Below, piece after piece: positions 12,284-44,011 of a stretch of DNA of 64,000 nucleotides. Under the pieces are notes generated by a model. It ran no database searches and was not told the origin of the DNA. It saw nothing but the letters and a program-made list of their open reading frames with translations. The position numbers and the translations under genes were made by a program. Source of the stretch: Corallococcus soli (GTDB lineage Bacteria > Myxococcota > Myxococcia > Myxococcales > Myxococcaceae); NCBI RefSeq assembly GCF_014930455.1, contig NZ_JAAIYO010000003.1, positions 310,001-374,000 on the forward strand, read 5' to 3'. The first letter of the stretch is position 1; every line of letters begins with the position of its first letter.

Positions 12284-12471
12284 CCTCGAAGTCAGGCCTA
12301 GCGGAAGCAGCGCGGCTCAGTCAGTTCATGAGCCTCGACGTCAGGCATCGCGGAGGCAGCGCGGCTCAGTCAGTCCAGGAGCCTCGACGTCAGGCATGGC
12401 GGAGGCTGCGCGGCTCCGGCCATGAGCCTTGATGTCGGGTGCGGCGGGAAGCAGCGCCGTCAGGCCGCGCT
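12284..12471. repeat. 49-bp imperfect tandem repeat, about 3.7 copies
   Basis: Units begin at 12284, 12333, 12382 and 12427, each opening with CCTCGA-GTCAGGC or a variant, followed by GCGGA-GC-GCGCGGCT. The first two full units are 49 bp, the third is 45 bp, and the fourth is degenerate and runs into the 3' end of the amidotransferase gene. The CTCAGTCAGT segment within units 1 and 2 is itself a short repeat. The array fills the gap between the convergent genes tsaE and the amidotransferase. No protein is encoded there. Confidence 0.75.
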
Positions 12472-13335
12472 GCCCTGAGTCGGCTCGGGCGGACGCGGGC
12501 CCAGCACGCCTTCGGCCAGCGTCTGCACCTTCCAGCGGCGGAAGACGAGCCGCGCGTCCACGCCCACCACGTCCTCTTCATCCACCGGCACCCAGTGGGG
12601 GCCGCCGCACAGCGACTCGCTGGCGATGAGGAACTGCTGGAGCGGGACGTCCGTGTGCGGCGCGCGCAGCGCTTCGGGGCAGCCGCCGATGCCGGAGGAG
12701 ATGAAGAGCGTGCGGTTGCGGCGCGTGGCCACCATCGCCTCGCCGTCGGTGACGAGGAAGTTCATCGCGGAGCGCTCCTTCGGCTCGCGGCTCCCCGGCA
12801 CGTCCGTCATCGTGGACACGAGCGTCATCGTCTCCGCGAGCGCCCGCGCCATCGCCTCCGCGGGCACCGACCCGTCGAGCGGGCCCCACTCCGCGAGCCG
12901 CGTCAGGAACAAATAGAAGCAGCGCTCGCTGTCGGTGGTGCCCTTGATGTTGACGCGCAGCTCCGGGTGGATGAGCGCCTCCACGGCGGCCTTGTGCTTC
13001 GCGAACTCGCGCAGCGTGCCGTTGTGCACGAATGACCAGCGGCCGTAGTGGAACGGGTGCGAGTTGCGGATCTCCACCGCGCCCACGCTCGCGAGCCGGA
13101 TGTGCGCGACCACCGTGCGCGCGGACACCTGGCTCGACACGCGCTCGAAGTCAGGGTCGCTGTGCGCGGGACCCACACCATGCGCGACCAGCGGCGAGCA
13201 TTCCTGCCCGTACGAGGCGATGCCCCAGCCGTCCTTGTGCTCGCGCGACTGGATGAGGAGGGAATTCCTCTCCGTCACCAGGGCGGTATGGACAGCAGCG
13301 GGGACCGCGGATCTGAACCCAAATAGTCGGCACAT
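12460..13335 (-). CDS. Class II glutamine amidotransferase (YafJ-type)
   Basis: The 291-residue protein begins MCRLFGF, so that after removal of Met the catalytic N-terminal cysteine is exposed, as in Ntn-type class II amidotransferases. HKDGWGIASYG, VVAHIRLASVG, NSHPFHYGRWSFVHNGTL and NIKGTTDSERCFY are the conserved active-site and glutamine-binding segments of the YafJ/EgtC-like group. It is a stand-alone amidotransferase domain with no synthetase domain, and the acceptor is not known. It lies next to the hut genes on the same strand, but the 87-bp gap gives no firm evidence of one operon. Confidence 0.88.
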   Translation of the reverse strand: MCRLFGFRSAVPAAVHTALVTERNSLLIQSREHKDGWGIASYGQECSPLVAHGVGPAHSDPDFERVSSQVSARTVVAHIRLASVGAVEIRNSHPFHYGRWSFVHNGTLREFAKHKAAVEALIHPELRVNIKGTTDSERCFYLFLTRLAEWGPLDGSVPAEAMARALAETMTLVSTMTDVPGSREPKERSAMNFLVTDGEAMVATRRNRTLFISSGIGGCPEALRAPHTDVPLQQFLIASESLCGGPHWVPVDEEDVVGVDARLVFRRWKVQTLAEGVLGPRPPEPTQGSAA

Positions 13336-13422
13336 GGTGGCAGCTGATCTCTACAACGGCCGGCCCACGAGAGAAGTTCCACTTGCCCCCTCGGACGATG
13401 GCCGTTGTTCAGCGGCGCGCAC

Positions 13423-14697
13423 TCAGGGACAGCATTCCATCCGCGCGCGGCCCACCACCCGTCCACTCTTCACCACCACCCGCGCGTGGCTGATTCCCAG
13501 ATGATAGGGCAGGTGCCTGTAGCTGCGACAGCCGAAGACCACCAGGTCGCCCGCATCACCCACGGCCAGCCGCCCCTGCCGTTGCAACCCCAAGCACTGC
13601 GCGGCGCCCCGGGTGGCGGCCCAGTACGCCTCGGCGGCCGTCAGGCCGTTCTCCAGACAGGCGAGCCCCAGCACCAGCGCCAGGTTTTCCGTCATGGAGG
13701 AACCGGGGTTCACGTTGGAACCCAAAGCAATGTTGACGCCCGCGTCGCGCAGCTTCCGGCCGGGCGCGTAGGGGCGCATGCGCAGGAAGAGGGTGGAGGT
13801 GGGCACGAGCACGGCGGTGACGTTCGCGGCGGCGAGCGCGCGGACGCCTTCGTCCGTCACCTGCTCCAGGTGGTCCGCGCTGGAGGCCCCCACTTCGGCG
13901 GCAAGGGCGGAGGCCCCGCAGGCGGTGAGCTGGTCCGCGTGCAGGCGCGGCGTGAGGCCCAGCGCCTTGCCCGCGAGCAGCAGGCGGCGGGACTCGTCCA
14001 CGGTGAAGGCGCTGTCCTCCGTGAAGACGTCGCAGAAGCGCGCCAGTCCCTCGCGGGCCACCGCGGGGAGGATTTCATTGATGCACAGGTCCAGGTAGTC
14101 GCCCCGGCGCCCCTGGTACTCCGCCGGCACCGCGTGCGCGCACAGGAGCGTGGGCACCAGCTCCAGCGGGGACAGCGCGCCCAGGCGGCGCACCGCGCGC
14201 AGCATCTTCAGCTCGTGCTCCAGCGACAGGCCGTAGCCGCTCTTCACCTCCGCGGTCGTCACGCCCTGCGCGAGCAGCCGCTCCAGGCGGGGCAGGGCGA
14301 GCCGCGCGAGCTCCTCCTCGCTGGCCGCGCGCGTGGCGCCCACCGTGTTGACGATGCCGCCGCCCGCCTTCGCGATCTCCAGGTACGTGGCGCCCTGGTT
14401 GCGCAGGTCGAACTCCGCGGAGCGCTCCCCCGCGAAGACCAGGTGCGTGTGCGGATCCACGAAGCCCGGGCCCACGAAGCCGCCTTCGGCGTCGATGATC
14501 TCCGTCGCGTCCGTGAGCGCGCCCTTCGGCAGGTCCGCCTCCCTGCCCACGAAGGCCACGCGGCCCTGGCGCAGGCCCACGCACGCTGCGGGGCGCGGGG
14601 TGAGGGCGACTTCAGCGGGCTCGCGGTGCGTGCCCTCCACGGTGAGCACTTCGGACGTGTTGCGGATCCACAGGTCCAGGGCTTCGGTTTGCATCAC
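13423..14697 (-). CDS. hutI: Imidazolonepropionase
   Basis: HutI hydrolyses 4-imidazolone-5-propionate to N-formimino-glutamate in histidine degradation. The 424-residue amidohydrolase has the metal motif DPHTH (His83, His85), GATYLEIAKAGGGI, the LRADAQ-like segment ARLHADQLTACG, and SSADHLEQV. The GTG at 14697 is preferred because GGAGGA lies 8 bases upstream. ATG at 14694 is the alternative. The gene follows a lipoprotein gene by 2 bp and hutU by one gene, forming a minus-strand operon. No hutH or hutG is in the window. Confidence 0.95.
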   Translation of the reverse strand: MMQTEALDLWIRNTSEVLTVEGTHREPAEVALTPRPAACVGLRQGRVAFVGREADLPKGALTDATEIIDAEGGFVGPGFVDPHTHLVFAGERSAEFDLRNQGATYLEIAKAGGGIVNTVGATRAASEEELARLALPRLERLLAQGVTTAEVKSGYGLSLEHELKMLRAVRRLGALSPLELVPTLLCAHAVPAEYQGRRGDYLDLCINEILPAVAREGLARFCDVFTEDSAFTVDESRRLLLAGKALGLTPRLHADQLTACGASALAAEVGASSADHLEQVTDEGVRALAAANVTAVLVPTSTLFLRMRPYAPGRKLRDAGVNIALGSNVNPGSSMTENLALVLGLACLENGLTAAEAYWAATRGAAQCLGLQRQGRLAVGDAGDLVVFGCRSYRHLPYHLGISHARVVVKSGRVVGRARMECCP

Positions 14698-36696: not shown

Positions 36697-38211
36697 TCAG
36701 CCCGCCATCACGCTGTCCGGGCTGGCCGGGCCGCCGTGGGAGGAGAACCGCAGGTTCGGGTCCACCACCGAGCCCTCCCGGAGCAGCTTGACGTCCGCGT
36801 GGTAGTCCATGGACATCAGCCACGGGGCCTCGTCGCTCCGACGCGGCAGGGTGTCGAGTGCGCGCTTCACGTACCCGGCGTCGAAGTCGAGCAGCGGCCG
36901 GGTCGGCATCGCCGGGTCGCTCAGCTCGGGGGTGCAGGTGGTGTGGCCGTGCGCGTCCATGTGCGTGAGCAGGCGGCAGAAGTGTTCGCACAGCAGGCCG
37001 ATCTTCAAGGTCCAGGATGCGTTGGTGTAGCCGACGGCGAAGGCGAAGTTCGGCACTCCGCTGAGCATCATGCCCCGGTAGGCCACCGTTTCCGGCAGGC
37101 GCACCGGCGCCCCGTTGACGGTCAATGCGATGCCTCCGAGCGCCTGGAGGTTCAACCCGGTCGCGGTGACGATGATGTCGGCCTCAAGCTCCCTGCCTGA
37201 CTTCAACTGGAGGCCCTTCTCGGTGAAGGTTTCGATGTGGTCCGTGGCCACCGAGGCCCGGCCGCTGGAGATGGCCTTGAAGAGGTCCGCGTCCGGGACC
37301 ACGCACAGCCGCTGATCCCACGGGTTGTAGGGCGGGTTGAAGTGCTCGTCGATGGGATAGCCCTTCGGCAGCTCCCTGGCGTTCACGAAGCGGATGAAGC
37401 GCCGGGCCGCACGCGGGAAGCGCTGACAGAAGCGCCAGAGGAAGCGCTGCAGCGCGATGTTCTTCCGCCGCGTGAGCGCGTGGGCCTGTTTCTTCGGCAG
37501 CAGCTTGCGCGCGAGCTTCGCGAACAGGTCCTCGGCGGGCGTGGGCAGGACGTAAGAGGGCGTGCGCTGGAGCATCGTCACATGCGCGGCCGTGTTTGCC
37601 ATTGCTGGCACGAGGGTCACGGCGGTGGCGCCGCTCCCGATCACGACGACGCGCTTGCCGCTGTAGTCCAGGTCCTCCGGCCAGTGCTGGGGATGGATGA
37701 CGCGGCCCTGGAAGCGCGCGGTCCCCTCGAAATGGGGCGTGAACCCCTGGTCGTAGCGGTAGTAGCCGCTGGCGCAGAACAGCCACCGGCACGAGAGCTT
37801 CTTGCGCTCCCCCGTGTCGGTGCGCTCGACGTCGACCACCCACCGGGCGTCGCTGCTGGACCAGGCGGCGCCGTGCACCCGGTGGTGGAGTCGGATCCTG
37901 CGGTCAATCCCGTACTCCGCCACGGTCTCGCGCAGGTAGGCGAGAATGGCTTCCGCGCCGGCAATCGACTTGTTGCTCGTCCACGCCTTGAATTCGTAGC
38001 CGAGCGTGTGCAGGTCCGAGTCGGAGCGAATACCGGGGTAGCGGAAGAGATCCCACGTTCCACCGGTGGCCCCACGGGCTTCGAGGACGGCGTACGACTT
38101 CGACGGGTGGTCCCGCTGGAGATAACAGGCGGCCCCAATCCCCGAGATGCCGGCACCGACGATCAGCACGTCGACGTGTTCAGGGAGGTCTGCGTCGCGC
38201 GGGGGGGACAT
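36697..38211 (-). CDS. Flavin-binding monooxygenase, Baeyer-Villiger type
   Basis: The 504-residue protein has an N-terminal FAD Rossmann motif GAGISG (19-24), and a second NADPH Rossmann motif GSGATA (192-197). Between them lies the Baeyer-Villiger fingerprint FxGxxxHxxxWP as [12 protein letters not shown] (167-178). It therefore probably inserts oxygen into a ketone or oxidises a heteroatom using NADPH and O2. The substrate is unknown. The ATG at 38211 has GGAG 6 bases upstream. It lies between the toxin pair and the RiPP operon and could be independent of both. Confidence 0.88.
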
Positions 38212-38468
38212 GGCGGGCTCCGTTGCTCGGTCAGCGTGGGGGCGCGGTGAACGCCCTGAGCACGCGTTGGTCGAAGGATGGTGAAAGGAGGTCGCCCGGA
38301 CAAGGTTCAAGGGAGTTGGACCTACCGCTCGTCGCCGACCGTCTCCGGGTGGTGGGAGCCGCCGTGCCAGTTGTGTTGGACGGGCATCACCCTGCGGTCC
38401 AGGGGCGTTGTGAATGGGAGAGGGCTCCTTCAGGCTTCTGCAGAGCACATCGATATCAGGAGGCGACC

Positions 38469-38648
38469 ATGGGCAAGGGTGGCGGTGGTGGAAAAGGCAA
38501 TGCGGGCGGTAGCCAGGGCGGGGGAGGAGGGAGCAAGGGCGGCAGCGGGAGCAACGGCGGAAACGGTAGTTCCGTCAGGCCCCCCAATGGCCCGAGCACC
38601 ACGGGAAGGCCCTCCGGCGATGGCCGGGGCAACAACCCTCCCAAGTGA
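38469..38648 (+). CDS. Small Gly-rich protein
   Basis: The 59-residue protein is about 45 percent glycine with Ser, Asn, Lys and Pro ([38 protein letters not shown]). Its ATG follows AGGAGG with a 6-base spacer, a much stronger ribosome site than most here, which supports real translation. It has no signal peptide. Low-complexity composition means homology will be hard to judge. It is convergent with the dehydratase gene, ending 24 bp before the latter's stop, and may be unrelated to it. An unstructured or adhesive role would be a guess. Confidence 0.5.
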
Positions 38649-38672: not shown

Positions 38673-40556
38673 CTATGGAGCGCGCGTTCGCGCGGGCTCC
38701 CGCAGTTCGCCCAGGGTGACGTGAAGCTCTCGCTGCTTCCACGAGAACGTCAGGCGCTGGCCGACCTGCTTCCAGTCGAAGGACACCTGCCCGTGCTCGG
38801 GGGACTTCAGGTCCAGGTGGACTCCCAGCCGTGCATCGGTGACGGTGTGCCGGGCGCTGTCGCGGAAGACGAAGGCCACGGCGTCGCGCACCGCCACCCC
38901 TAGGTTCGCGAGGGTGAATCGCTCTCCCTCCAGGACGGGCAGCGAGGGCGGGGCGTTCGGCTCCAGGAAGCGCTGCGGTCCCGCACGCCGTGTCTTCAGC
39001 GCTCCTTCCACTCCCGTCAGGTAGAGCAGGGGACCTCCCTGCGCCTCCCTGAAGAAGTACGGCACGTCGAGCCGGCCCAACTGCTCCGCCTCCTCCCGGC
39101 TGAACCGGCCACGCGGTGAGGAGGGCTTGCCGGAGGACAGCACCTGCCGGTCCAGCGCTTCGCCATACACCGAGGTGGGCTTGACCAGCACCCGGACGAA
39201 CCGATTCCGTGACGCACGCTTCAGGAACTTCACGACCCGGGGGCGCTCCAACAGCAGCAGCGTCCAGAGGTCGAACAGGCCGCGCAGGAACGCCGGGAGG
39301 TACGCGCCGAAGCCAACGTTTCCCTGCGTGTCCGCGACCACCGAGCGCGTCTCCTCCCGCGCCCAGGGCCGTGTCCTCCTTTCGAGCCGCAGCACGCCTC
39401 CGCGCGTCTCCGTGAAACACACCCGCGGGCCGCCTTCGGTGCACCACCGCGCGCTGCGCTCGAAGCCTACGTGGTGGTTTCCTCCGTCACTTGCATCGTT
39501 GATGAGCCCGGTCTCCGGAAGCCGTTGGACGGGGGCGAAGAACACCTCCAGGTCCACCGGATAGGCCATGGGCCTCCGGTCCTTGCTCCTGGCTCCGACC
39601 AGGACGTTGCCCGCGAAGAGATCGCCCATTCCCAGCGCGAAGCACGCGGCGGTGAGCGAACCGGCGCGATGCCAGAAGCGCTCCGCTTCCCGGGGCTCCA
39701 GCCGACAGCCCTCCAGCCGCAGGTGCTCCGCTTCCCGCAACGTGCCCCACTGCCGGGGACGGGGGATCCACTCCTGCCAGCTGTAGGCGAACCGGTCCGC
39801 TCCACGGCCCTCCAGGATCCGCATCGTGGGCAGGTGCACCGCTCCGGACGCCGCGGGGCGCCCGTTGAGCCATTCGAAGAGGGAGCTTCCCGCGCGGCCC
39901 TCGTATAGGAACAGCGCTTCACCTCCCGCGGGCCTCGGCTTGTAGGCCAGTGCTCCGCCCTTGCGAAAGCGCAGCCTCAACACGCACTGCCGTCCGTTGT
40001 GCGTCTCCTCCGGGTTCGCCCACACGCCCACCACCGGACCGGTGAAGCCCTCCCGCTGGAACACCCCCGCTCGCAAATCCCTTCGCAGCCGGATGAGGAA
40101 GCGCGCGAAGAACGCCTGGAACCCCTTCCACAGCGCGCCCAGGTCGGGCGGCTCGGCGCCCTCGTTCGTGGCGGCGCACTGCGTGAAGGCGTCGGTGATC
40201 AACGGGCCGAACAGCTCCGCGTTGCTCAGCGTGAGCACCCGAGGGCCGAAGAGTCCCGGATGTCCTCCGGCCGTGCTCCGACACCACGCCCCCAGCTCCT
40301 CCAGGAGCTCCACCAGGGGATGGAAGCCGGGCCGGGCCAGCAGGGCATGGATGCGCCGAGCATCTTCTTCGCCGTGCAGGGCCCTCGCGACCTGGAGCAC
40401 GCCTTCGGGACCTTCGCGGACCACGGGCGGGAAGAAGCCGGTGGCCCGTCCCCTTCGCACCGCCTCCACCAACCCGCGCGCCCGCGGTGGCAGGGGCGGT
40501 AGGGGACCCGGACGCGGCTTCGGGATGCCTCGGGGCAGGACGGTCTTCCGGGGCAT
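38673..40556 (-). CDS. LanM-type lanthipeptide dehydratase (DUF4135-like) without cyclase domain
   Basis: The 627-residue protein resembles the N-terminal dehydratase half of class II lanthipeptide synthetases, which phosphorylate and then eliminate Ser/Thr of a precursor. Visible motifs are ETHNGRQ (184-190, Glu in place of the usual Asp), ALAYKPR (Lys206), GDLFAGN (311-316, Phe where LanM has the motif His), PVDLE (Asp335) and RVLVKPTSVY (Arg455 and Thr461, matching the phosphate-elimination pair). There is no C-terminal LanC domain or zinc ligands. ATG at 40556 is chosen because an attenuator hairpin lies between the precursor and this codon. ATG at 40625 is possible. Confidence 0.75.
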   Translation of the reverse strand: MPRKTVLPRGIPKPRPGPLPPLPPRARGLVEAVRRGRATGFFPPVVREGPEGVLQVARALHGEEDARRIHALLARPGFHPLVELLEELGAWCRSTAGGHPGLFGPRVLTLSNAELFGPLITDAFTQCAATNEGAEPPDLGALWKGFQAFFARFLIRLRRDLRAGVFQREGFTGPVVGVWANPEETHNGRQCVLRLRFRKGGALAYKPRPAGGEALFLYEGRAGSSLFEWLNGRPAASGAVHLPTMRILEGRGADRFAYSWQEWIPRPRQWGTLREAEHLRLEGCRLEPREAERFWHRAGSLTAACFALGMGDLFAGNVLVGARSKDRRPMAYPVDLEVFFAPVQRLPETGLINDASDGGNHHVGFERSARWCTEGGPRVCFTETRGGVLRLERRTRPWAREETRSVVADTQGNVGFGAYLPAFLRGLFDLWTLLLLERPRVVKFLKRASRNRFVRVLVKPTSVYGEALDRQVLSSGKPSSPRGRFSREEAEQLGRLDVPYFFREAQGGPLLYLTGVEGALKTRRAGPQRFLEPNAPPSLPVLEGERFTLANLGVAVRDAVAFVFRDSARHTVTDARLGVHLDLKSPEHGQVSFDWKQVGQRLTFSWKQRELHVTLGELREPARTRAP

Positions 40557-40589
40557 CGGTGACGTTGCCTCTCCCAGGCTGAAAAGAAA

Positions 40590-40621
40590 CGGGCGTGGAT
40601 CGAGCAACCCGACCCACGCCC
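40590..40621 (-). terminator. Attenuator/leaky terminator between precursor and dehydratase genes
   Basis: GGGCGTGG (40591-40598) and CCACGCCC (40614-40621) form an 8-bp stem that extends by two pairs past one mismatch. On the minus strand the stem is followed by GTTTCTTTTCA. This is the typical place for a partial terminator that keeps precursor mRNA in excess over enzyme mRNA. Confidence 0.55.
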
Positions 40622-40641
40622 GCATCAGGAACAACGCCGTT

Positions 40642-40788
40642 CTAGACCATGCAGTAGACGCGGATACACGTACCGCGCGCCTTCGTGGAGGTGGGCACCG
40701 TGGCCTTCTCCATCTCACGCATCATCTGCACCAGCTTCTGCTTGGCCTGCTTGGACGACCGGGGGGCCTTCGCCTTCTTCTTGAGCAT
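40642..40788 (-). CDS. Putative RiPP (lanthipeptide-like) precursor peptide
   Basis: The 48-residue peptide starts with ATG at 40788, preceded by GGAGGAG. Residues 1-28 form a Lys-rich amphipathic leader (MLKKKAKAPRSSKQAKQKLV, QMMREMEKA) and the C-terminal part TVPTSTKARG-TCIRVYCMV has four Thr, one Ser and two Cys (Thr30, Thr33, Ser34, Thr35, Thr40, Cys41, Cys46). It lies between a JmjC oxygenase gene and a dehydratase gene with a leaky terminator behind it, the usual layout of a precursor gene. No Gly-Gly cleavage site is present, and the leader/core boundary is inferred. Confidence 0.7.
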   Translation of the reverse strand: MLKKKAKAPRSSKQAKQKLVQMMREMEKATVPTSTKARGTCIRVYCMV

Positions 40789-40838
40789 GACACTCCTCCG
40801 TCGATTGGGCTGACTGCGCGTACAGCGTGGGACGTGTT

Positions 40839-42200
40839 TCAAGATGCGTCAAGCGGTGGATGCGGACTGTTTCCCTGTCCCTGCGTCAGCGCGCGGCAGG
40901 CGTGAAGCTTTTCCAGCACGCTGCGCATCCCTTCACGCGTTGCGGCAATCACATCCACGTCCGGCGCCGTTCTACCGCCTGAACGAAATGGCCGCAGCAG
41001 GTCTCCGACGCGCGATTCCCGGCCTGATGCCAGCTCCTTGAACAGCTTCGCGACTGCCTGCCCGCCCCCCTTGCCTCGAAGGGCCTGTCCGTTGGCCGCG
41101 CAGATCCAGCGGGTCGTGTCCTCCTGTTCGAGGACGATGGGGAAGCGCGCGTCCGCGTGCACGCGGTCCCCGTCCCGCAGCCGCTTCGTGGGGGCGGGGT
41201 CCGGCACGGGCTGGAAGCCCCCGGAGGTGAGGCGCTTGAGCCACGTCTCCTGGATGTGCCGACGCGCGTCGCGGGGCCGGCTCACGTCGCGGAAGGCCTC
41301 GACCGCTTCGGAGAGCGCGCGGGGCAGCACCGTGGGCAGGCGGCCTCCGGCCCTGAGCGCATCTCGCATCAACGGGGAGGCGTCCACCCTGGCGAGGCGC
41401 GTCTGCGTCCACTCGTGGTCGGCGAGGGACGTCTCGTCGATCATCCCTCGCAGCAGGTCGTCCACGGCGTAGACGGTGCGGTGCTCCGTGAGCGGGATTC
41501 CCACGTTCACGCTCGTGGTCACGCCCGCGCCCGCGCTCTCTCCGACGTGGTAGTAGGTCGAGGGCCAGTAGAGGATGTCCCCGGGCTCGACCTCCGCGAC
41601 GAAGGAGTCCTTCAGGTAGGGCTGGTAGTCGAGCACCGTGGAGACGTCCTCCTTCCAGGGCCGCTTGCGCCAGAACCGCATCCGCTTGCGCCCCCTGAGC
41701 GCGAAGAGGAAGGTGGTGAAGCGGTCCAGGTGGACGCCCACGGGGCTGTGTTCGTACGTTCCATGGAACAGCGTCGTGATGCCTCCCGTGATGGGCAGGC
41801 CGACGCGCTTCCACAGCTCCGCGAAGAAGGCTCGCTCACGGCTCCACAGCCCGTATCCGGAGCTGTGCAGGCTGGAGATGATCAGCGCATACCGCTTCGC
41901 GCCCACCTCGGCCGCGATGCGCGCGTCGTAGGCCTCCAGCGAACCGTCCGACGCGCGGGGGAGCCAGGGCTTGAGGACGAGCTGCCGCGACCGGTCCACG
42001 GTGAAGGTGACATCCGGCCGCGAGTCCACGGCGTAGCTCCGCTCCAGGTATCGCCGGGTCGCGCCCGCGGAGGCGTCGAAGACATCCGTGAGCGTGAAGG
42101 GCGAGGCGCCGGTGCCCTTGAAGAGCACCGGCCGCTGGTTCCAGTAGCGCGCGACGAAGGTGTCCCAATCAAAGCGGCGGGTGGTTTCAAGCGCGGACAT
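40839..42200 (-). CDS. JmjC/cupin-type Fe(II)/2-oxoglutarate oxygenase
   Basis: The 453-residue protein resembles bacterial JmjC (cupin_4) hydroxylases of the ribosomal-oxygenase type. The iron triad is complete: His157 and Asp159 in VGVHLDRFTTFLFALRG and His218 in YWPSTYYHVGES. The C-terminal region (about 360-440, WICAANGQALRG...) is a probable winged-helix-like domain shared with the next gene. In the RiPP operon it is the likely tailoring hydroxylase acting on the precursor, for instance on Arg, Tyr or Val. It starts 3 bp after the paralogue's stop. The substrate is inference. Confidence 0.8.
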   Translation of the reverse strand: MSALETTRRFDWDTFVARYWNQRPVLFKGTGASPFTLTDVFDASAGATRRYLERSYAVDSRPDVTFTVDRSRQLVLKPWLPRASDGSLEAYDARIAAEVGAKRYALIISSLHSSGYGLWSRERAFFAELWKRVGLPITGGITTLFHGTYEHSPVGVHLDRFTTFLFALRGRKRMRFWRKRPWKEDVSTVLDYQPYLKDSFVAEVEPGDILYWPSTYYHVGESAGAGVTTSVNVGIPLTEHRTVYAVDDLLRGMIDETSLADHEWTQTRLARVDASPLMRDALRAGGRLPTVLPRALSEAVEAFRDVSRPRDARRHIQETWLKRLTSGGFQPVPDPAPTKRLRDGDRVHADARFPIVLEQEDTTRWICAANGQALRGKGGGQAVAKLFKELASGRESRVGDLLRPFRSGGRTAPDVDVIAATREGMRSVLEKLHACRALTQGQGNSPHPPLDAS

Positions 42201-42203
42201 GGT

Positions 42204-43463
42204 TCAGCCCTCCTCCCTGGTCACGACCTGGAGCGCCCGCAGCCGCTGGAGTTTCTCCAGCACCGCGTCCAGCTCCTCCCGTTGCGCCCCTCGCCGTGCA
42301 AGCCGCCGAAGCTCCCCCACGGCGTGGGCTTCATCCGATGCCAGGGCCTTGAGGACCTCTTGCGCCACGGCGGTGCCCATCCCGGGGAAGACGTGGCCGT
42401 TGACCGCCCAGATCCACGGGCCCGGTCGCTCTCCCATCCGGATGATGTCCGCGGAGGGGACGCCCCGCACGAGGTCGGTGTCCCGCAGGGGCACGGCCTT
42501 GTCGGGCGGTGGGGCCGGTTCCAGACCGCATGCGCTCACCCGCCTTGCCCAGATGATGCGCAGCGCCTGATGCACGTCGGGTGAGCGCAGCAGGGCTTCC
42601 AGGTCATCGGCGGTCCGCTCCAGGGGCGGGGCCGTGGTGCGCTTGCCCTTGCGCGGTCGGCGCCAGGGGTAGGGGAGGTAGGGCACGGCTTCATCGTGCG
42701 CGGAGCGTGCTTCCAGGAGCGCCACGAGCACCTCCTTGACCGCGTCCGTCGGCCGGCTCCCCTGGACGGGGACCCACAGTCGCAGGGCCATGCAGTCACC
42801 CCGCGCCTCATCCAAGTGCCAGAGGCGCGAGGGGGTGTAGAGCCACTCTCCCTCGCCGGCCTCCAGGGTCGTGGCGTCGGCGTGGTGGCGGTCGAAGTCG
42901 ACGGTCTCTCCAGGAGCGTCGCCCCAGAGCTTCTCCCAGAGGCGCACGCGCAACCGTCCGTGGAGCACCAGCGTGAACAGGGCGTGATTCGGGCGCTTCG
43001 CGACGCCCCGAGGGTTCTGGGGAAAGTTCCCCAGCAGCAGCTCGCTGACGATGGGGAGGACCGGAACGCCGACGCGCTCCAGCAGCCCCCGGACGAAGCG
43101 GCGGACGGGATCCCAGAGGGTGAAGTCGAACATGAACGGTTGCTCGACGAAGAGCTGGAACGGTCTGCCACCCAGGCCTGCGGAGGCCCGGCGGACGTAG
43201 TCGCTGACGCCCGCGTCGTCTTCTCCGGGGAGCAGCGGTCCCGGCGCGCCGAGCTGCGCGGTCTCCACGAAGAGCCGCACGTCCGGCAGCGCCCGGAAGC
43301 GCGTCCCGAAGCGGAAGGGCGCGCAGACCGCCACGAGGCTCCGGAAGACCTGCTCCGGGGAGACGACGGGGACGTCCAGGGACAGGTGCGCCGGCGCCTT
43401 CTCCCAGTGGCGACGCACGAACGATTCCCAATCGGGTTCGCGGCTCATCACGGCTCCGGTCAT
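42204..43463 (-). CDS. JmjC-like protein lacking the iron ligands
   Basis: The 419-residue paralogue of the neighbouring oxygenase starts similarly (DWESFVRRHWEKAP against DWDTFVARYWNQRP) and ends with the same C-terminal domain (PWIWAVNGHVFPG). At the iron site VGVHLD is replaced by RGVAKR (155-157 region), so the His and Asp are missing, although a distal His216 (RLWHLDEA) remains. It is therefore probably an inactive partner, for example a precursor-binding subunit. ATG at 43463 overlaps the upstream stop (ATGA), which supports this start over ATG at 43448. Confidence 0.75.
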   Translation of the reverse strand: MTGAVMSREPDWESFVRRHWEKAPAHLSLDVPVVSPEQVFRSLVAVCAPFRFGTRFRALPDVRLFVETAQLGAPGPLLPGEDDAGVSDYVRRASAGLGGRPFQLFVEQPFMFDFTLWDPVRRFVRGLLERVGVPVLPIVSELLLGNFPQNPRGVAKRPNHALFTLVLHGRLRVRLWEKLWGDAPGETVDFDRHHADATTLEAGEGEWLYTPSRLWHLDEARGDCMALRLWVPVQGSRPTDAVKEVLVALLEARSAHDEAVPYLPYPWRRPRKGKRTTAPPLERTADDLEALLRSPDVHQALRIIWARRVSACGLEPAPPPDKAVPLRDTDLVRGVPSADIIRMGERPGPWIWAVNGHVFPGMGTAVAQEVLKALASDEAHAVGELRRLARRGAQREELDAVLEKLQRLRALQVVTREEG

Positions 43464-44011
43464 GACGGCAGGTAGCGCCGCTGGAGGCGCCGAGCGTAGG
43501 TGCGCAGGGACGGCAGCTCCATCTGTTTTCGCCGTGCGTCCACCGCGTCAGCCTTTTCGATGGGGTAGGGGACGAGCTCGCCCTTCACCTTGCGGAACTT
43601 CGTCCCATAGAGCTGCTTCTTTCCAGCGCGCATGCGCACCACGTCGGTGAGGTAGGCGACCTGCTGGAGGGGGACCTCGCCCTGGGCCGCTGCGTCCTGG
43701 AGCCGGCGCAGGCATTGGCGATGGAAGGTGAGGGAGCACTCGGCGTGGAGGACGAGCCGGCACGCCGCAGCCGCTGCGGCGCGGCCCACCAGGGTGTGTC
43801 CGGGCCAGCCGTGTTCCTGGATGACGTCGCGCAGCCAGGCGATGCCCGCGGTGGTGAGGGCGGTGAGTTTTCGTTCCAGCGCGCGATCCTTGAACTCCGT
43901 CGCGGTCCACTCCGAGCGCAGCGCATGGTCGAGGCGGTCGAGCCGCAGCAGGTGGCCCCGCAGCTCGCGGTCCAGCGCGGTCTGCTTCACCGTTCGTTTG
44001 CGTGTCGCCAT
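43460..44011 (-). CDS. DUF6624-like protein heading the RiPP operon
   Basis: The 183-residue protein has a conserved helical core: GWPGHTLVGRAAAAAACRLVLHAECSLTFHRQCLRRLQDAAAQGEVPLQQVAYLTDVV and QLYGTKF, which I recognise as DUF6624, a family of unknown function. It has no signal or transmembrane segment and a basic N-terminus. ATG at 44011 is chosen at the start of the basic region. GGAGG lies rather far (about 12 bases) upstream. The stop overlaps the next gene by ATGA. Its position as first gene implies it belongs to the pathway or its control. Confidence 0.7.
   Translation of the reverse strand: MATRKRTVKQTALDRELRGHLLRLDRLDHALRSEWTATEFKDRALERKLTALTTAGIAWLRDVIQEHGWPGHTLVGRAAAAAACRLVLHAECSLTFHRQCLRRLQDAAAQGEVPLQQVAYLTDVVRMRAGKKQLYGTKFRKVKGELVPYPIEKADAVDARRKQMELPSLRTYARRLQRRYLPS

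Follow-up and report, generated by a model that had tools for sequence, protein, structure and literature searches.

A conserved cassette of a precursor peptide, a LanC-less dehydratase with DUF6624 and a JmjC pair in Corallococcus soli and distant bacteria, proposed to be a RiPP pathway

The window analysed here is a stretch of 64,000 nucleotides from the 9.4 Mb genome of Corallococcus soli (contig NZ_JAAIYO010000003.1, positions 310,001 to 374,000). At window positions 38673-44011, on the minus strand, it holds five genes for which a pathway to a ribosomally synthesized and post-translationally modified peptide (RiPP) had been suggested from the DNA letters alone (the original prediction). 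Coordinates and Pfam matches, and for one protein a predicted fold, confirm the genes, their order and their domains. The first gene encodes a DUF6624 protein of 183 residues (43460..44011; Pfam PF20329, 60.8 bits, cut-off 27). It is followed by a degenerate JmjC protein (dJmjC, 419 residues, 42204..43463) that matches no Pfam family and is predicted to have a YcfD/NO66 fold, with no HxD iron-binding pair and with a C-terminal winged-helix domain resembling a RiPP recognition element (RRE). Next come an intact JmjC oxygenase (453 residues, 40839..42200; Pfam JmjC_2, 35.5 bits, cut-off 22) with the triad H157-D159-H218, a small precursor gene (40642..40788, stop counted in) and a LanM dehydratase of 627 residues (38673..40556; Pfam DUF4135, 73.6 bits, cut-off 29) that consists of DUF4135 only and has no LanC domain. 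The tight packing originally claimed is found on the JmjC/DUF6624 side, where the dJmjC and DUF6624 genes are joined by an ATGA overlap and 3 bases separate the intact JmjC gene from dJmjC, but not around the precursor gene, which is flanked by gaps of 50 bases (JmjC side) and 85 bases (LanM side).

The precursor gene is a small open reading frame (ORF) of 48 codons with a good ribosome site (CGGAGGAGTGTC before the ATG). Its product, MLKKKAKAPRSSKQAKQKLVQMMREMEKATVPTSTKARGTCIRVYCMV, ends in GTCIRVYCMV, within which residues 40-46 (40651..40671, minus strand) form the conserved core TCIRVYC. We searched 6479 small ORF candidates from 47 loci (28 named loci and 19 Myxococcaceae operons, described below) for the motif (S/T)C-x(2-4)-YC-x(0-5)-end; loci with no more than weak JmjC homologues (L052, L053) and copies of counted genomes (L054-L057, L084) were left out. 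The 55 matches all fall inside the cassette region and on its coding strand; the 3497 control ORFs outside it yield no match. The region is wide, with 2982 of the 6479 candidates inside, and the motif was written after the first precursors had been seen, so that this is a test of specificity and not a blind prediction. An origin of the small ORF by chance was rejected on these figures (55/55 at the cassette, 0/3497 elsewhere). The lack of a conserved precursor ORF, which had been named in advance as a finding that would speak against the RiPP operon, did not occur: the 19 Myxococcaceae operons contribute 19 precursors, and 26 of the 28 named loci a further 36, giving at least one in 45 of 47 loci (L063 and L069 have none).

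Behind a variable leader the observed core takes the form (T/S)-C-x(3 or 4)-Y-C-x(1-5). Its first residue is Thr in 44 and Ser in 11 of the 55 precursors, and the spacing between the first Cys and YC is 3 in 32 and 4 in 23. Arg stands at the second position after Cys in 39 cores, the most common form being C-x-R-x-Y-C. The core TCIRVYC is identical in the window, in Streptomyces (L060, L061, L062, L064, L066, L071) and in Lysobacter L081, and RSCSRFIYCV is shared by L051 of the genus Myxococcus and Lysobacter L059, L067 and L081, in both cases behind different leaders. These identical cores argue for a division of the precursors into leader and core, with the cleavage itself predicted. Nine loci encode two or three precursors each. 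Both spacings occur in six of these (L059, L065, L067, L073, L079, L081), only 3 in L074 and L075 and only 4 in L080; the seven Myxococcus genomes with two operons (below) likewise have one core of each spacing. The spacing-3/spacing-4 pairs would fit the joint production of two distinct peptides.

Within the family Myxococcaceae, 96 genomes were searched. The intact JmjC protein has matches at E ≤ 0.001 in 36 genomes and strong ones (E < 1e-140) in 12; the LanM protein has 12 strong matches (E ≤ 5e-210, the next being 5.8e-8) and DUF6624 also 12 (E ≤ 8.7e-73, the next 1.2e-35). The strong orthologues of all three occupy the identical 12 of the 96 genomes, a count that is uncorrected for relatedness and depends on thresholds chosen after the gaps in E-values had been seen. 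Among 16 genomes of its genus, only that of the window has cassette orthologues. Since further genomes have weaker DUF6624 homologues (31-43% identity in most cases), this family reaches beyond the cassette. Twenty family regions were fetched; 18 contain orthologous operons, which with the window make 19 Myxococcaceae operons in three layouts. Layout A (the window and L041-L044) is DUF6624-dJmjC-JmjC-precursor-LanM, layout B (L034-L040) is the same without LanM, and layout C (L045-L051) is dJmjC-JmjC-precursor-LanM without DUF6624. Layouts B and C are co-resident in the same seven Myxococcus genomes, so that each of these genomes carries a single cassette LanM and a single cassette-type DUF6624; in six of them a more distant DUF6624 is present as well. 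Directly downstream of the layout-A operon of L041, and convergent with it, lies an extra JmjC_2-positive gene (12391-13875 of that locus, minus strand).

Outside the family, a scan of named genomes with the JmjC alignment A1, limited by the alignment patterns, gave at least 33 loci; a scan of genome contigs with the single protein P0003 returned none. Five of the 33 are of the Myxococcaceae type, and the other 28 come from Streptomyces, Kitasatospora, Catenulispora, Fodinicola, Stackebrandtia, Lysobacter, Luteimonas and related metagenome-assembled genomes. LanM is present in 26 of these 28, DUF6624 in 25, a precursor in 26 and an at least partial dJmjC in all 28. The four enzymes and a precursor occur together in 25 loci, with truncations or broken frames in some that lie on draft contigs, and LanM with a precursor in 26; the exceptions include L063, where neither LanM nor DUF6624 was found, and L069, which lies at a contig edge. 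The usual order is precursor(s)-LanM-DUF6624-dJmjC-JmjC, with dJmjC first in Luteimonas L080, L082 and L083. Pairwise distances among the four proteins are correlated (Mantel r 0.875-0.943, 28 sequences, species relatedness not controlled). On these sequence comparisons the cassette is conserved as a unit across at least three phyla and not by chance; Myxococcota was taken from taxonomy, and the other phyla follow the usual assignment of the named genera. The co-occurrence of DUF4135, JmjC and DUF6624 genes beside short Cys-containing ORFs that the original prediction had proposed to look for was thus found in Myxococcaceae and in distant bacteria, and the scattering of unlinked homologues that would have spoken against it was not: the enzyme genes are linked across genomes. 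Two records titled Comamonas sp. KCTC 72670 (L055, L056) carry Myxococcus-type cassettes, and their organism label looks wrong.

In the distant loci the two proteins of the presumed dehydration step are one. DUF4135 and DUF6624 share an ORF in 24 of the 25 non-Myxococcaceae loci with both, the exception being L070, a draft contig with frame breaks. LanM matches in L058 span more than one frame and its fused ORF starts inside LanM, and the fused ORF of L073 overruns the usual stop. Pfam confirmed both domains in three of three fusions tested. DUF6624 occupies the C-terminal position in which a canonical LanM, such as the example from the window's own genome, has LanC. The LANC_like family has no match in the window LanM (P0002) or in the four relatives scanned, while the canonical LanM of the same genome matches it, and a tblastn search of L034-L086 (53 loci) and of the window with the LanC domain of that protein had no hit with an E-value under 2. 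DUF6624 had been listed as a member of the operon; it is present, and its fusion to the dehydratase outside Myxococcaceae makes it more than an accessory. Its motifs include HGWP, QH, TD and YGTK. Most simply, it is a required partner of the dehydratase; a role as cyclase is possible. The family is named in a single paper of the open-access literature searched; its fusion in the LanC position now ties it to a definite partner enzyme, the class II dehydratase. What replaces LanC and what DUF6624 does become directly testable questions. DUF6624 is also reported beside the RiPP synthetase in graspetide clusters of groups 18, 20, 23 and 42, in group 18 together with oxygenases; there the partner is a graspetide synthetase, whereas in the cassette it is a LanM dehydratase, paired or fused. 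Graspetide synthetases are ATP-grasp enzymes. No ATP-grasp ligase was found in the five operon proteins or in 10 other window genes scanned; the flanks of the other loci were clustered only, not annotated.

For the catalytic residues, 37 family members were aligned to the canonical LanM of the window's own genome, leaving out L056, L057, L084 and the frame-broken L070 (short or frame-broken members were dropped from alignments A2-A4). The numbering of CylM was transferred by motif and not by a structural alignment. Glu at the position of D252 and the residues H254, K274, D347, N352, D364 and R506 are kept in 37/37; the position of T512 is Thr in 28 and Ser in 9. The structure and mutants of CylM implicate Lys274, Asp347, His349, Asn352 and Asp364 in phosphorylation and Asp252, His254, Arg506 and Thr512 in elimination (PMC4550811). 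An AlphaFold2 model of the fusion of Streptomyces roseolilacinus L061 (mean predicted local distance difference test score, pLDDT, 89.8) resembles LicM2 (Z 18.0, root mean square deviation (rmsd) 3.5, 411 residues aligned) and CylM (Z 17.5, rmsd 3.5, 402 aligned), the matches being listed over residues 35-589. The cassette enzyme thus shares with these class II LanM proteins the dehydratase fold and the catalytic residues, save for the His of the DxH motif and the change of Asp252 to Glu; it differs in having DUF6624 in place of LanC and a score of 48.9 bits with the NCBIfam LanM model, far under the cut-off of 304. The genome of the window encodes two further DUF4135 proteins: a canonical LanM with DUF4135 and LANC_like (L001, G000:C3:816232-820359) and a second DUF4135-only protein, a 566-residue frame with a canonical DLHEEN motif and no LanC match, unlinked to the cassette (L002, G000:C6:167055-170618).

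The two JmjC proteins were originally grouped as JmjC-type hydroxylases, and in this respect the description must be revised: only one can be a hydroxylase. The intact protein keeps each of H157, D159 and H218 in 30/30 sequences, and its closest PDB chains are those of YcfD, the L16 arginine hydroxylase; we propose from its sequence that it would be the core hydroxylase. In dJmjC, H157 is kept in 0/31, D159 in 1/31 and H218 in 8/31, and the HxD pair is present in 0/31. A model of dJmjC (mean pLDDT 88.4) nevertheless matches YcfD over the whole length (4ccl, Z 17.1, rmsd 7.7, 339 residues aligned), including the C-terminal domain of one strand followed by three helices. We propose that dJmjC may be a peptide-binding partner, and the active/inactive pair offers a second testable idea, that of a dead oxygenase retained as a peptide-holding subunit. 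A survey reports that some JmjC PF08007 proteins in fish and algae carry fused RRE-like domains and that their nearest bacterial JmjC homologues stand in RiPP-like contexts (PMC12710340). JmjC hydroxylation of a RiPP core residue (Orn) is described for BipG/BpmG of the biphenomycins (PMC12707348); that pathway differs in using a multinuclear non-haem iron-dependent oxidase (MNIO) and a radical S-adenosylmethionine (SAM) enzyme and has no dehydratase, and an inactive JmjC partner is not mentioned in the available portion of the paper. At L052 (G042:C11:163000-182000) two weaker JmjC homologues, which form a pair, have TfuA and YcaO as neighbours, and a third lies next to an MvdD-like ATP-grasp protein; it seems that clusters of the thioamide/azole type and of the graspetide type also use this JmjC subfamily.

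We propose, with a probability of about 0.72, that the cassette is a RiPP pathway in which the dehydratase-DUF6624 unit would dehydrate the Thr/Ser before Cys and one JmjC protein would hydroxylate the core. The leader would be held by the inactive JmjC protein, through its winged-helix domain, by the active one, or by both. The dehydratase-DUF6624 unit would phosphorylate and then dehydrate the invariant Thr/Ser that precedes the first Cys (-18 Da), the presumed site because no other Ser/Thr is fixed in the motif. The active JmjC would put one oxygen on the core (+16 Da), and one or more hydroxylations are conceivable. Addition of the second Cys to the dehydro residue, with the help of DUF6624, may then give a thioether ring of 6 or 7 residues, or the two Cys may form a disulfide. 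For the window peptide the predicted shifts are -18 Da for dehydration, +16 Da for oxygenation and -2 Da for a disulfide; a thioether would not change the dehydrated mass. Leader removal and export would probably fall to genes outside the cassette. Such a pathway would define a compact RiPP family over three phyla that the standard LanM model would not name, since the window protein scores far under its cut-off.

Several observations weigh against this pathway. The DxH histidine, His349 of CylM and proposed to be catalytic, is kept in only 1 of 37 family members (L041), and phosphorylation may therefore run slowly or in another way; the H349A mutant of CylM yielded only a little dehydrated peptide (PMC4550811). 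A YcfD-like enzyme would most obviously act on Arg, which lies between the Cys residues in 42 of 55 cores and is missing in 13; Arg was rejected as a universal hydroxylation site on this count and because L065, L073 and L079 have, in each case, one core that contains it and one that does not. LanM is missing from seven type-B operons and DUF6624 from seven type-C operons, all of which would need help in trans, and L076 has LanM but no detectable DUF6624. The type-B operons were rejected as self-sufficient because they have no LanM (in L035 a 496-residue protein without a Pfam family follows instead) and because all seven genomes carry a type-C operon with LanM. Beyond the cassette, crude gene clustering found no gene family in more than 3 of the 28 non-Myxococcaceae loci, apart from antisense shadow ORFs over dJmjC in 5 loci. 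This crude clustering, in which two three-locus families were looked up, showed no transporter, protease or immunity gene shared by the flanks; the representatives of the two families are an AMP-binding enzyme of the acyl-CoA-ligase type and a LysR regulator. Finally, the ratios of nonsynonymous to synonymous substitution (dN/dS) of the precursor pairs are mixed, with dN > dS in several.

The proposed pathway has a precedent in the literature. No description of the cassette, and no joint treatment of JmjC and DUF4135, was found in the open-access literature searched, outside which most subscription papers lie, and to that extent the original statement that no such pairing is known holds. It overlooks the polytheonamides, proteusins in whose pathway a cyclase-less LanM dehydratase, PoyF, makes a single Thr dehydration beside a putative Fe/2-oxoglutarate hydroxylase, PoyI (PMC9505594). 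The polytheonamides differ in their nitrile hydratase-like leader peptides (NHLP), radical SAM enzymes, many other changes and the absence of a TC...YC core, and the accessible part of the account names no DUF6624 and no JmjC pair. The window precursor has no Pfam family above cut-off and the three precursors scanned have no NCBIfam family, NHLP leaders included. That a cyclase-less LanM and a JmjC protein belong to one RiPP operon stands, given the absence of a LANC_like match, the conserved precursor and the linked enzymes.

More tentatively, DUF6624 in the place of LanC could mark a new class of thioether-forming synthetase, in which DUF4135-DUF6624 and the JmjC/pseudo-JmjC pair would make a hydroxylated ring peptide from (T/S)C-x(3/4)-YC cores. 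The matched spacing-3 and spacing-4 precursors of several lineages (7/7 two-operon Myxococcus genomes, 3 Lysobacter and 3 Kitasatospora loci) could then work jointly as a two-peptide product. 'Class VI' already denotes the streptococcal LanKCb (PMC12328550).

A RiPP without a thioether ring, which like the preceding reading is less likely than not, would keep its dehydrobutyrine (Dhb) or dehydroalanine (Dha) open and carry a Cys-Cys disulfide, with DUF6624 merely activating the dehydratase or holding the substrate. The missing LanC matches described above would fit such a product, as would the reported occurrence of DUF6624 in graspetide clusters, which are not lanthipeptides. A parallel is CcaM, a dehydrazole synthetase (LanMbC): its DUF4135 dehydratase yields eight dehydro residues and no lanthionine rings, yet needs the fused C-terminal domain for dehydration. 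CcaM differs in that this domain is a class III cyclase domain and that its substrate carries azoles made by YcaO, neither of which was seen in the cassette. The two invariant Cys (invariant by definition of the motif) would supply the disulfide, but they would serve a thioether equally well, so their conservation does not decide. A free Cys adds to a nearby Dhb without an enzyme by established chemistry, which argues for a ring.

It is unlikely that the LanM-like protein is a kinase only and a phosphopeptide the end product, as with EmbM in phospeptin. Like the cassette enzyme, EmbM is LanM-like and cyclase-less, so that such kinases do exist (PMC9505594), and the DxH motif is changed in 36/37 members. 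EmbM, however, lacks the elimination residues and acts on a precursor without Cys, whereas here H254, R506 and T512 (as T/S) are kept and D252 is Glu in 37/37, the core has two Cys, and the changed residue lies on the phosphorylation side and not on the elimination side.

That the genes are no RiPP cassette at all, and instead a housekeeping protein-modifying set of the JmjC ribosomal oxygenase type beside a fortuitous small ORF, is highly improbable: the JmjC proteins are indeed nearest to the YcfD/NO66 ribosomal oxygenases (the intact one by sequence, the inactive one by predicted fold), but the occurrence is patchy (12/96 genomes, 1/16 in the window's genus), and 55 precursor ORFs with one ending, two or three per locus in nine loci, bring the idea close to refutation by the motif census. 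An anti-phage defence system was rejected, as a PADLOC scan of six proteins gave no meaningful defence match (best E 0.007, 13 bits, to a CARF model).

Between the precursor and LanM genes lies a hairpin of 16 pairs with a T-rich tail (40589..40623, minus strand, followed by TTCTTTTCAG), which had been read as a leaky terminator. The structure exists, but termination is only one of several candidate roles; it may also be a 3' stabiliser of the precursor message. The window region has 3 terminator-like sites, where chance alone would give 2.4. Of the 45 loci with a precursor (L063 and L069 left out), 37 have a hairpin just 3' of the last precursor whose stability exceeds that of 90% of 40 control windows from the same locality; the median energy is -30.4 versus -20.7 kcal/mol for the controls. 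Attenuation, message processing and stabilisation are all possible, because the rule for a T-rich tail is also obeyed in only 9 of the 45. The hairpin may raise the level of the precursor message above that of the next gene.

None of the 10 other window genes scanned near the operon looks like part of the cassette. They encode an FMO-like oxidoreductase, a carbonic anhydrase, a beta-lactamase-type hydrolase, a PD40 protein, a histidine kinase, a glutamate dehydrogenase, a DUF6066 protein, a trypsin/PDZ protease, GrpE and one protein without a family. The gene for the FMO-like flavin monooxygenase (36697-38448, minus strand) comes after the operon and is read in the same direction; the crude gene clustering does not list its cluster as one that the window and the named loci have in common. 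Between this gene and the operon, at 38469-38648 on the plus strand, a glycine-rich ORF of 59 residues with a good ribosome site is convergent with the LanM gene.

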